Shown: piece after piece, positions 29,395 to 33,367 of the stretch | Layout of the letters: every line of letters begins with the position of its first letter | Position numbering within the stretch: the stretch's first letter is position 1 | DNA from: Promineifilum sp. | GTDB lineage: Bacteria > Chloroflexota > Anaerolineae > Promineifilales > Promineifilaceae | DNA length: 64,000 bases | Assembly (NCBI GenBank): GCA_018058545.1 | Contig: JAGOZU010000003.1 | Span: 1 to 64,000 of the forward strand | Direction of reading: 5' to 3' | Notes under the pieces: generated by a model | Databases searched by the model: none | The model's input: only the letters and a program-made list of their open reading frames with translations | Told to the model about the DNA's origin: nothing | Translations under genes and position numbers: made by a program

Positions 29395-29709
29395 TCAAGG
29401 ATCTGAACTTCCAACATCGCCCGGCAGTTGTTGCAAAACATGGCACATCCGCAGAATGTGAAGCTCTTCGTAGGGAACTGTTTCCTGAAGCGCTTCATAG
29501 ATTAGCCGGAGTCGCTCCACCCCCAGATCGTCGAAGGTGCTGAAGGCGGCTTGCCTTTCATCGGCCGACAGGCGGGATAAGGCCAGCAGGGCCGGGCCGT
29601 CCAGCCTGACGCCATCCAGCACGCTTTGCCAGAGATATAACATCACTGAGTTCCACTGGATGTTCAGGTTTTGGGCGATACTCGCCGGGTCTTCGCCCTG
29701 CATATACAT
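29395..29709 (-). CDS. detached HTH domain of RecQ (in frame after a stop codon)
   Basis: 104 residues. MQGEDPASIAQNLNIQWNSV then LDGPALLALSRLSADERQAA then EALQETVPYEELHILRMCHV fits the helix-turn-helix domain ('HTH_40' type) that ends many RecQ helicases. It lies in the same reading frame as recQ. After the recQ TAA (29722-29724) come the sense codons for Gln-Val-Thr-Glu and then this ATG, with no further stop. So one TAA separates the two parts. It may be translated alone (AGG and GAG precede the ATG, weak site), by readthrough, or not at all. Confidence 0.6.
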   Translation of the reverse strand: MYMQGEDPASIAQNLNIQWNSVMLYLWQSVLDGVRLDGPALLALSRLSADERQAAFSTFDDLGVERLRLIYEALQETVPYEELHILRMCHVLQQLPGDVGSSDP

Positions 29710-29721
29710 CTCTGTAACCTG

Positions 29722-32253
29722 TTAACGACGGGGACGGCCGCCGGTTGGAACCCGCGCCGGTCGGGCGGGTGCTTCCGGCTTCGGCCGCTCCGTGATACCC
29801 TGTTCCCGACAATAGGTCTGAATCACCGCCAGAAACGTATCTCCAAATCGCTCCAGCTTGGTTGCGTTAATACCCGTTATTTGGGCCAAAGAATCGCGCG
29901 ATTGGGGATAATAAATCGCTATCTCGCGCAACGTGCTGTCGTGGGAGATTATGTAGGCCGGTACATCCTCTTGGCGGGCCAATTCAAGGCGAACGGCGCG
30001 CAATCGGTCGAACAGCGCTTCATCGTAGTCGTGAGCGGTGGCGCGGCCGACTGCCCGCTCGGCCGTGAGAGGCGTGCCCATGAAGACCTCTCCTCTCAGC
30101 ACGGCGCGTCCCTGCTCGGTCACCTTCAGGCTGCCATGGTCCATATCCCGCCGCAGCAAGCCATGACCGACCAGTTGGCGGGCCAGTTGTTGCCACTGCT
30201 TGCGACTGAACTCCCGGCCGACGCCGTAGGTTGATAGCTGGTTGTGATGTTGTTCCAGGATCTCTTTGCGCCGCGAACCGCGCAGGATGTTGGCGATATA
30301 AGCCGCGCCGAATATCTGGTCGGTGCGAACGACGCACGACAGGAACTTCTGGGCGGGGATGGTCAGATCGATCTGTTTGGCCGTGCCCGCCAGGCAATTA
30401 TCACAGCGGCCGCAGGTCTCGGGGGTCTCGTCCTCGCCGAAGTAGGCCAGCAAAGGGCGACGGCGGCAACCGGCGGTTTCGGCGAAAGCGATCATCGTCT
30501 GCAACCGGGCTGCAGCCGGTGCGCGCTGAGAGGGATCGTCCCGGTCAGACAGGAAGCTATGGGTTAGGGCATCCCCCGGGTTGAACAACAGCAGGCAATC
30601 GGCCGGCAATCCATCCCGCCCGGCGCGGCCGATCTGCTGGTAATAACTTTCCAAATCCTTGGGCAGGTCGTAATGAATGACGAAGCGCACGTTGGACTTG
30701 TTGATGCCCATGCCGAAGGCGATGGTGGCGACGATGATCGGCGTTTCGTCGCGGGTGAAGCGCCGCTGGTTTTTCTGGCGGTCGGCGTAGTCCAGCCCGG
30801 CATGGTAGGGCAGGGCCGCCTGGCCGTTGGCGACGAGTTGCGCGGTCAGCTCATCGACCTGATTGCGGGTGTGGCAATAGATGATCCCCGATTCACCGCG
30901 ATGTTTGTCCAGAAACTCCAGCGTCTGGGCCAGACCGTCGTCGCGAGGGGCCACGCCCAGGAACAGGTTCTCGCGGTCGAAGGAAGATACAAACTCGTCA
31001 GCGTCATTGATCGTCAGATTGTGCTTGATGTCCTGGCGAACACGGTCGGTGGCCGTGGCCGTGACGGCCAGACAGACGGCGTGGGGCAGCCGCCGGCGCA
31101 CCTGGGCCAATTGGCGGTATTCGGGCCGGAAGTCGTGACCCCATTCGGAAATGCAATGGGCTTCGTCGATGGTCAGGCAATCGACGCGGCACTCGTCAAG
31201 CATGGCCAGCGTCTCCGGCCGCAACAGGGTCTCGGGCGACGTATAGAGCAATTTGGTGTGCCCGGCCTTGATGCTTCGGGTGATGGCGACGTAGCCGTCA
31301 TAGGGCAATGTGCTGTTGAGACAGGCGGCGGGCACGCCCAACTGCCGCAGCTGCATGACCTGATCTTCCATGAGCGAGATGAGCGGCGAGACGACGACCG
31401 TCAGACCGGGAAACAGAATGGCCGGCAGCTGAAAGCATAGCGACTTGCCGCTGCCGGTGGGCATGACGGCCAGGCTGTCGCGGCCGGCCAGCATGTTTTC
31501 GATGATGTCGGCTTGCAGCGGCCGAAAGTCATCGTAGCCGAAGACGCGCTTGAGGGCGCGCTGGGCGTCCTCGAACGTCACCGCAGCGGCCTCCGTGTCC
31601 TGTTCATCGGGCCAAAGTTCGGCCTGATCCGGCACGGCGATGGGCGTGATCCAGCCCGATAGCTGGACATAGCATCGCAGTTCGGTCGCCGGGTCTTCGG
31701 CAGGGTGCCACCAATGGGCCATTGAAACGCGCAGCAATGTCCCGGCCGGGATGATGGCCGGTGGCTCCTGATAGCCGACGAAGACGAACGTGCTGTCGTC
31801 GCCTTCGCCCGGGTAGTTGTAGCGGATGCGCTTGCCGTCCGTGTTGCGCGTCAGCGAACGGTCGGGCCGCCAGAATTGGGTGCTATAGGAGGGCACGCCG
31901 GTTCGCTCGGCGACGAAGAGGGCGCCGCTCCGCGCTGTCTGGAGCAGGCCGCCGTAAAGAACGTCCGGGCCGCCGATCGCCGGGGGCATGTGACGTTCGA
32001 TCAAGGCAGACAGATCGTCGGCCGTGCCCAGCCGCTTCTTGCGGCGGACGAGGATGTTCTCGGTGTGGGGTGGGGTGATGACGTCGGGGCCGGGAGCGAT
32101 CTCCCAGACATCGCCGACGCTGTATTCCTGATTGAACTGTTCGTTATAGGCGGCATCGGGAGCTATAAGGCGAACGGAGCGGCCGTCCTCGGCGATCCCG
32201 CCGATACAGGCCCCTCGACCCATCCGTGTTTTGGCGACGATTGTAACGATCAT
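29722..32253 (-). CDS. recQ: RecQ-family DNA helicase with extra N-terminal domain
   Basis: 843 residues; ATG preceded by CAGGAGGGGCTC. Residues 1-220 precede the helicase and are not part of standard RecQ. They start MIVTIVAKTRMGRGACIGGI and look like a beta-rich, OB-type nucleic-acid-binding region; I suspect a 'dual OB' domain but cannot verify it. The helicase follows: FRPLQ at about 243, Walker A PTGSGKS (265-271), DEAH (363-366), GMGINKSNVRFVIHYD and QQIGRAGRDG. Next come the zinc-binding CGRCDNC, the winged-helix region and an HRDC domain (about 745-815). It ends in a Pro/Arg tail, RARVPTGGRPRR-like, then TAA. It unwinds DNA in repair. Third gene of the DUF488 operon. Confidence 0.93.
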   Translation of the reverse strand: MIVTIVAKTRMGRGACIGGIAEDGRSVRLIAPDAAYNEQFNQEYSVGDVWEIAPGPDVITPPHTENILVRRKKRLGTADDLSALIERHMPPAIGGPDVLYGGLLQTARSGALFVAERTGVPSYSTQFWRPDRSLTRNTDGKRIRYNYPGEGDDSTFVFVGYQEPPAIIPAGTLLRVSMAHWWHPAEDPATELRCYVQLSGWITPIAVPDQAELWPDEQDTEAAAVTFEDAQRALKRVFGYDDFRPLQADIIENMLAGRDSLAVMPTGSGKSLCFQLPAILFPGLTVVVSPLISLMEDQVMQLRQLGVPAACLNSTLPYDGYVAITRSIKAGHTKLLYTSPETLLRPETLAMLDECRVDCLTIDEAHCISEWGHDFRPEYRQLAQVRRRLPHAVCLAVTATATDRVRQDIKHNLTINDADEFVSSFDRENLFLGVAPRDDGLAQTLEFLDKHRGESGIIYCHTRNQVDELTAQLVANGQAALPYHAGLDYADRQKNQRRFTRDETPIIVATIAFGMGINKSNVRFVIHYDLPKDLESYYQQIGRAGRDGLPADCLLLFNPGDALTHSFLSDRDDPSQRAPAAARLQTMIAFAETAGCRRRPLLAYFGEDETPETCGRCDNCLAGTAKQIDLTIPAQKFLSCVVRTDQIFGAAYIANILRGSRRKEILEQHHNQLSTYGVGREFSRKQWQQLARQLVGHGLLRRDMDHGSLKVTEQGRAVLRGEVFMGTPLTAERAVGRATAHDYDEALFDRLRAVRLELARQEDVPAYIISHDSTLREIAIYYPQSRDSLAQITGINATKLERFGDTFLAVIQTYCREQGITERPKPEAPARPARVPTGGRPRR

Positions 32254-32265
32254 GAGCCCCTCCTG

Positions 32266-32751
32266 TCAGGGTATCAAATGCTCGACCTCCACGTCCCATT
32301 CCCGGCCTAAACGCTCGGCCAGCAGCGACCGATGGCAGGCCGAGGGCAACCGCTCGACGCACAGCAGGGCGATCACCGTCGCGTCGTCGGGCAACTCATC
32401 CCGCAGCGACCGGGGATCAAAATTGCCCAACACTTCCCGCTCGTAGGCTTCCACAAAAAGAGGGCTTATTGCCACGCGCTGCCGCTTGGCCACTCCGGCC
32501 GCCTTGTCCGCATCGGTTTGCCGCCGGCGAATGTCGGCCGGGGGCGCGAGGTCAAGCCGGTGGAGGTAGCGGATACCTCGCTCGGTCAAGCCCGCTTGCA
32601 GGCGTTGGCTATTGGCGAAGGCATAATCCCGACCGCGCACCGCCCGGCGTCGCCGGACATCCACCAGCGTATCCACACCGGCCGCTTGCAGGGCGGCGAA
32701 GAACGTCTCGGCCGAATAGCCGATCGCGCCGATGGTGACGACCTTATTCAT
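32266..32751 (-). CDS. DUF488-family protein (second copy)
   Basis: 161 residues from the ATG at 32751, which overlaps the end of the upstream DUF488 gene by 8 bp; 12 bp before recQ. It begins MNKVVTIGAIGYSAETFFAA, the DUF488 opening. It contains DVRRRRAVRGRDYAFANS and the family's C-terminal motif CVERLPSACHRSLLAERL (C...E...CHR). The Cys and His residues suggest a metal or redox-active site, but no activity is established for the family. It is shorter and diverged compared with the first copy. Tight coupling with recQ implies a shared role in DNA metabolism or defence. Confidence 0.85.
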   Translation of the reverse strand: MNKVVTIGAIGYSAETFFAALQAAGVDTLVDVRRRRAVRGRDYAFANSQRLQAGLTERGIRYLHRLDLAPPADIRRRQTDADKAAGVAKRQRVAISPLFVEAYEREVLGNFDPRSLRDELPDDATVIALLCVERLPSACHRSLLAERLGREWDVEVEHLIP

Positions 32752-33367
32752 ATTCCTCGTCCGCCTCGTATGATTCATCGCGACCCTGCAAGTCGTCGCG
32801 ACTTCGCGAATTTTCGCGGCCATATCTTTTGCGCGAGGTGCCCGGCATCGTCTCGTCGCCAAACAACGAAAGCTGGCCCCCCGTGCGGCGCAGCAACACC
32901 TCTTCCTGAGTCACCGGCTTGTCGTTTTCATCGATATGGATCACCGGCAGGCTTCGCTGCGCCAAGGTGCGGCCGATCAGCTTCGTCCGGTGGCACATCT
33001 CCGGCTTGCCCTCGCTGCACATCAGGCAAATCGTCAGCCCCTGTGCGTGCGCGTCGGCCAGTCGCTCGATGCCCGCCCGATAGAAATCCCGCTCGGCCAC
33101 GCGCTCATACACCACCCGATCCGCGTCGTCGTAGCAGGTGCGGTCGGCCGGCTGCCCGCCCAGGCTATCGCCCATGTAGACATAACGTATACCGACTTGC
33201 CGCAGATGTTCTTCCAGGGCTTCCCGCGAAAAGTCGGGCTTGTAGCGCGAGTACGGCCGCGAGCGTACGTCGATGAGGAAACTCACCCCGTTGCTGCGCA
33301 GCGTGGCGATAAACCCCTCGATATCGCGCGCGCCATAGCCGATTGTCAGGATAGGTGGGTGGTTCAC
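32744..33367 (-). CDS. DUF488-family protein (first copy)
   Basis: 207 residues if the GTG at 33367 is used (VNHPPILTIGYG, matching the family's usual start). A TTG at 33424 would add 19 residues; neither has a clear ribosome binding site. Characteristic segments are ILTIGYGARDIEGFIATL, FLIDVRSRPYSRYKPDF and ICLMCSEGKPEMCHRTKLIG, the CxE...CHR motif. The C-terminal 45 residues are charged and disordered-looking (Arg/Glu-rich) and include QLSLFGDE, which resembles a beta-clamp-binding peptide (QLSLF). That suggests recruitment to the replication clamp. It leads the operon DUF488-DUF488-recQ. Confidence 0.85.
   Translation of the reverse strand: MNHPPILTIGYGARDIEGFIATLRSNGVSFLIDVRSRPYSRYKPDFSREALEEHLRQVGIRYVYMGDSLGGQPADRTCYDDADRVVYERVAERDFYRAGIERLADAHAQGLTICLMCSEGKPEMCHRTKLIGRTLAQRSLPVIHIDENDKPVTQEEVLLRRTGGQLSLFGDETMPGTSRKRYGRENSRSRDDLQGRDESYEADEEYE

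Follow-up and report, generated by a model that had tools for sequence, protein, structure and literature searches.

The window, a stretch of 64,000 nucleotides from Promineifilum sp. (contig JAGOZU010000003.1, positions 1 to 64,000), carries on its minus strand three genes encoding two DUF488 proteins, here called DUF488-A and DUF488-B, and a RecQ helicase with an N-terminal DuOB domain. DUF488-A and DUF488-B overlap by 8 bp (32744-32751), and 12 bp (32265-32254) separate DUF488-B from RecQ; the coordinates, the overlap and the gap agree with the original prediction. The start given there, 29395, also takes in an HTH_40 ORF, which was left unmentioned. The features are as follows.

32744..33367, minus strand: DUF488-A, a rhodanese-phosphatase-like Rossmannoid enzyme with GTG start and clamp-motif tail (PF04343, 89.5 bits; PADLOC PDC-M45B, 158.2 bits; AF2 pLDDT 85)
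32987..33019, minus strand: DUF488-A active-site loop, C117-S-E-G-K-P-E-M-C125-H-R127 (homologue alignment and AF2 model)
32861..32875, minus strand: QLSLF, putative beta-clamp-binding motif, DUF488-A residues 165-169 (conservation, shuffled tails, consensus)
32266..32751, minus strand: DUF488-B (PF04343, 58.6 bits; PADLOC PDC-M45C, 58.8 bits)
32329..32361, minus strand: DUF488-B active-site loop, CVERLPSACHR (sequence; C-x-E-x5-CHR also in relatives)
29722..32253, minus strand: DuOB::RecQ helicase, 843 aa (TIGR01389, 726.2 bits, cut-off 640.2)
31651..32247, minus strand: DuOB dual OB-fold domain (PF22557; AF2 pLDDT 87, pTM 0.82)
30610..31524, minus strand: DEAD (aa 244-405) and Helicase_C (aa 444-548) domains, with Walker A MPTGSGKS and DEAH box (Pfam, translation)
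29821..30576, minus strand: RecQ zinc-binding (560-621), RQC (626-722) and HRDC (744-811) domains (Pfam)
29722..29724, minus strand: TAA stop between RecQ and the in-frame HTH_40 (sequence; relatives)
29395..29709, minus strand: HTH_40 ORF, 104 aa, a RecQ-associated C-terminal domain as its own ORF (PF14493, 32.5 bits, cut-off 27)

Both DUF488 proteins scored above the PF04343 cut-off of 22.2 bits, and the predicted CxE...CHR motifs are present as C-x-E-x5-C-H-R in each. In DUF488-A, the residues C117, E119, C125, H126 and R127 were invariant among 52 aligned homologues. The AF2 model places a strand at 113-117 and then a helix at 126-137, and the position of the Cys at the strand end and of the Arg at the start of the next helix fits a rhodanese- or phosphatase-like site in the predicted structure. 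Fold matches to the model were weak and included an RNA 5'-phosphatase, dual-specificity phosphatases and tetrapyrrole-type methylases; Foldseek TM-scores were low in general, at 0.3-0.45. A sequence search for solved relatives of DUF488-A returned none at E 0.01. Against the DUF488-N3a model (PF22751, cut-off 27 bits), the two window proteins scored 17.6 and 22.5 bits and thus fell below the cut-off. DUF488 proteins occur in many bacteria and archaea, and we know of no proven reaction for them. Burroughs & Aravind (2023) reportedly classified the rhodanese-phosphatase superfamily, DUF488 included, and are said to have placed relatives of DUF488 alongside enzymes whose targets are nucleotide sugars or RNA or DNA termini; the Pfam models DuOB and DUF488-N3a probably go back to that work.

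RecQ exceeds the TIGR01389 cut-off, and its DEAD, Helicase_C, zinc-binding, RQC and HRDC domains are all present with intact motifs. Residues 3-201 of its N-terminus were assigned to PF22557 DuOB (70.7 bits, cut-off 27; model positions 3-210 of 210, both OB folds included), so the region predicted to be OB-like is the Pfam domain DuOB, and the solved structures that it matches best are those of tandem OB-fold proteins. The AF2 model of DuOB is rich in beta-strands, and the top solved structures matched by the modelled segment (31594-32253) were mammalian HIN-200 DNA-sensor domains, followed by Teb1, BRCA2 and RPA. With TM-scores of 0.30-0.38, these matches to a predicted structure support a tandem OB build and do not support closer kinship. 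Searches for solved relatives of DuOB by sequence gave insignificant matches only, and the viral structure library yielded nothing below E 0.001. The HTH_40 ORF lies in frame with RecQ beyond a single TAA, and in most relatives HTH_40 is fused to RecQ. In another genome of the genus (G006), a different stop elsewhere in the same linker splits HTH_40 off; the HTH_40 ORFs of the window and of this genome are both intact.

Using DUF488-A alone as the query, we found 80 genome loci, distributed among Chloroflexota, Poribacteria, Latescibacterota, Gemmatimonadota and Limisphaerales. DUF488-A, DUF488-B, DuOB and RecQ were found together in 64 of the 80, nearly always as A-B-DuOB::RecQ, with DuOB and RecQ in separate frames at one full locus. 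The other 16 consisted of five DUF488-A::RecQ fusions, one locus with DUF488-A and then RecQ only, four with DUF488-A alone and six that are cut by contig ends before any RecQ would come into view. A sixth DUF488-A::RecQ fusion (L052) was detected in the window's family. Because some RecQ members occur without both DUF488-B and DuOB, these two are not always needed. The pairwise identities of the four parts were correlated at r 0.84-0.93 over 60 loci, compared with a permutation maximum of 0.31, and since part of this r reflects common species descent, the fusions and the recurrence are the firmer evidence. The kept order, the gene fusions and the co-divergence bear out the original claim that the genes act together and, as comparative sequence evidence, show that the DUF488-A, DUF488-B and DuOB-RecQ genes form one conserved functional unit. 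The original prediction had been made to depend on a conserved neighbourhood and on a RecQ N-terminus other than a common domain without link to DUF488; conservation of the neighbourhood was found, and while the N-terminus proved to be an already named domain, that domain is itself linked to DUF488.

The order and class contain a second form, in which A-B-DuOB is accompanied by a separately encoded TPR-RecQ (L045, L049 and L050), and another locus (L048) has an A-B-DuOB of the same type. The B protein of this variant exceeds the DUF488-N3a cut-off, at 39.9 bits. Two individual loci of the collection differ in other ways: L038 (8064-12648) is a seemingly decaying copy with DUF488-A and RecQ each in two frames, and L033 (8911-9489), in one genome, has a DJ-1/PfpI-like gene between DUF488-B and DuOB-RecQ.

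The QLSLF peptide stands after the DUF488-A core, within a loop of lower AF2 confidence that is probably flexible, judging from the model. It was originally likened to a clamp-binding peptide, and this likeness has held up: QLSLF matches the clamp-binding consensus QL[S/D]LF, which has the looser form QxxLF (PMC12309361), and a variant consensus is Q-aliphatic-x-[L/M]-[F/L] (PMC13254535). A Q..[LIMF]F motif was present in 78 of 80 DUF488-A tails, compared with a mean of 2.6 and a maximum of 9 of 80 in shuffled tails; close relatives from Poribacteria are numerous among the 80 sequences, and the count therefore overstates the independent support. Among the 52 homologues, Q165 was invariant and F169 was kept in at least 90%, with the middle residues variable. 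QxxLF-type motifs were found in none of 70 DUF488-B proteins and in none of 17 single DUF488 proteins, the latter being a small control. All four DUF488-A proteins of the TPR-RecQ type terminate in QLSLF or QLTLF, and the linker that bears the motif is a different one; those of L045, L049 and L050 end exactly in QLSLF. Judged by this conservation, QLSLF is a conserved clamp-type motif and not a chance pentapeptide; it is exposed according to the model, and is regarded here as a putative binding motif. The clamp motif also occurs in lone DUF488-A proteins at four Poribacteria loci (L122, L134, L138 and L140), whose surroundings contain neither DUF488-B nor DuOB nor RecQ; two of these loci have methylase or type I restriction-type genes in their vicinity.

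The combination of DuOB with two DUF488 proteins corresponds to PDC-M45, a phage-defence candidate in PADLOC-DB 2.0, in which component A is DuOB and components B and C are DUF488. The PDC-M45A model did not match the N-terminus of the window RecQ, though the same region is above the Pfam DuOB cut-off, and a relative with separate DuOB did match it (33.9 bits). Since the fused DuOB is missed by this model, we call the window operon a variant and not a member of PDC-M45. The literature search found neither a mention of PDC-M45 by name nor experimental support for it.

Triads without a helicase, in which the identity of DuOB was confirmed by Pfam, were found on plasmids. Type III CRISPR genes lie beside two of them: the Rhodothermus plasmid triad adjoins cas1-cas2-cas6-csm6, and the Allochromatium plasmid triad is located between cas1/csx16 and csm6. 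The triad of an Agrobacterium plasmid adjoins a CBASS cyclase-HORMA-AAA operon, and a Rhodovastum plasmid also carries a triad. On Citrobacter, Klebsiella and Acinetobacter plasmids, DUF4326 takes the place of one DUF488, with toxin-antitoxin or restriction genes near several. This gene order recurs on a Moraxella plasmid, where no toxin-antitoxin or restriction genes are annotated. In E. coli, DuOB-DUF488-DUF4326 sets (L254, L255 and L256) reside in integrative elements at icd and ffs. Of 5426 E. coli genomes, a handful carry such cassettes, and the one in the icd element sits beside e14-type genes and mcrA. On a single prophage-like contig, A-B-DuOB adjoins portal and terminase genes, and phage records contained no DuOB and only weak DUF488 matches. 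The strict clamp motif is kept in 13 of 22 helicase-free triads, plasmid and prophage ones among them; it reads QLNLF on the Rhodothermus plasmid, and two contigs of the viral collection have it as well. It was not found in the other nine or in the DUF4326-bearing triads, and the DUF4326 partners in plasmid triads likewise lack a clamp motif. These mobile-element and immune-locus contexts favour a defence role, as guilt by association among plasmid loci that were picked by best match and not randomly.

We consider it about an even call that the operon is a RecQ-armed PDC-M45 variant acting as a clamp-recruited complex for processing DNA ends or gaps, and we lean towards defence over repair as its role. 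DuOB would recognise single-stranded or otherwise unusual DNA and load RecQ, which would unwind the DNA in the 3'-5' direction. QLSLF may tether DUF488-A to the beta clamp and so locate it at replicating or newly gapped DNA, where the two thiol-type DUF488 enzymes could act on phosphate or sugar groups at exposed DNA ends. The net effect might be, as a guess, that replicating foreign DNA (phage or plasmid) is disabled; the main alternative guess is that the cell's own damaged forks are repaired. A more specific version, an as yet undescribed immune system in which a DUF488 enzyme docked on the host sliding clamp detects foreign DNA under replication, DuOB-RecQ opens this DNA and a new DUF488 reaction chemically blocks or alters its exposed ends, is doubtful at present.

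The strongest competing explanation, somewhat less probable than the complex just described, is a genome-maintenance module: RecQ would serve the cell itself as its repair helicase, the DUF488 pair on the clamp would clear blocked DNA ends where forks stall or gaps form, and foreign DNA would not be a target. In its favour, a clamp motif is a typical feature of proteins in replication and repair (PMC12309361, PMC13254535). Neither the window genome nor six of the seven other Chloroflexota genomes examined has a full RecQ besides that of the operon. Within the genus, the RecQ-form operon keeps its position near the PlsC gene, and its flanks are housekeeping-like, which does not favour defence. 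Beyond kinases and single generic matches, no defence-island signal was observed in the window or in 24 representative RecQ-type loci, the counts being made without a matched random control. On the other hand, the distribution of DuOB is patchy for a maintenance function: 23 of the 59 relatives have it, as do 33 of 301 genomes from the phylum, and many members of the window's family have no full RecQ at all. The operon RecQ of Poribacteria is a second RecQ alongside a shorter one, and the relatives without a helicase travel on mobile elements, close to immune loci. The context of the RecQ form itself is compatible with an accessory module for repair and also with a defence system that has become established in the chromosome.

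Alternatively, in a DNA-modification or sensing system, the DUF488 enzymes could make or erase a mark or a signal nucleotide, which DuOB would read. The grouping of DUF488 relatives attributed to Burroughs & Aravind would agree with this, as would the HIN-200 DNA sensors among the best DuOB fold matches, but the TM-scores of those matches are just 0.30-0.38 and the conserved unit has no methyltransferase, glycosylase or nucleotide cyclase. DUF4326, which is swapped for one DUF488 in the plasmid triads, has been proposed to remove ribose-linked phosphates in ADP-ribose products (PMC9503650), and this also points towards modification or sensing; overall we judge such a system improbable. That RecQ and the two DUF488 genes, all of common kinds, became neighbours by chance is conceivable as both families are widespread; the recurrence across phyla, the fusions and the co-divergence refute this idea, and it hardly merits credence.

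The earlier statement that no DUF488-RecQ system had been described was too strong, as DuOB with two DUF488 proteins is PDC-M45; it stands for the RecQ-fused form, which is undescribed in the literature searched. The DuOB/DUF488 pairing is already on record in PADLOC and Pfam, and is probably recorded by Burroughs & Aravind (2023) as well. In a search of the literature, the text of that study excepted, we found no DUF488 paired with RecQ, no DuOB-RecQ fusion, no DUF488-A::RecQ fusions and no conserved DUF488-A clamp motif.

Three handles on DUF488 come together here: a constant helicase partner, a domain for DNA binding and a putative docking motif for the well-studied replication clamp. They allow a prediction of the DUF488 substrate that can be tested, namely DNA ends or gaps located at the clamp. 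A defence candidate that previously existed in a database only is now linked, through a predicted motif, to the sliding clamp, and the small E. coli-borne relatives of the operon are open to laboratory study.

In comparison with known systems, PADLOC labels the window helicase DpdF, of the Dpd 7-deazaguanine DNA system. This identity was rejected: the helicase scored 188.8 against the cut-off of 550 of the curated NCBIfam DpdF model NF041063, the operon has no TGT-like (DpdA) gene, and the genome's two TGT matches are on other contigs; the label is a generic-helicase match. One TGT-family gene (G000:C3:1946-3034), with one stop in the matched frame, is present besides the ordinary tgt. With the DUF488/DUF4326 branch of the rhodanese-phosphatase superfamily, the window proteins share the DUF488 domain, the CxE-CHR active site and a nucleic-acid context. 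The window RecQ has the helicase, zinc-binding, RQC and HRDC set of E. coli-type RecQ (TIGR01389), but differs from it in its N-terminal DuOB, its obligate-looking DUF488 partners and HTH_40 as a separate ORF. PolC, DnaE and RecB, which bind the clamp in replication and repair (PMC12309361, PMC13254535), have a motif of the QL[S/D]LF type on a flexible tail, as DUF488-A does, whereas the putative clamp motif of the window sits on a DUF488 enzyme. PDC-M45 likewise unites both DUF488 types, matched here at 158.2 and 58.8 bits, with DuOB in one operon, whereas in the window DuOB is fused to RecQ.
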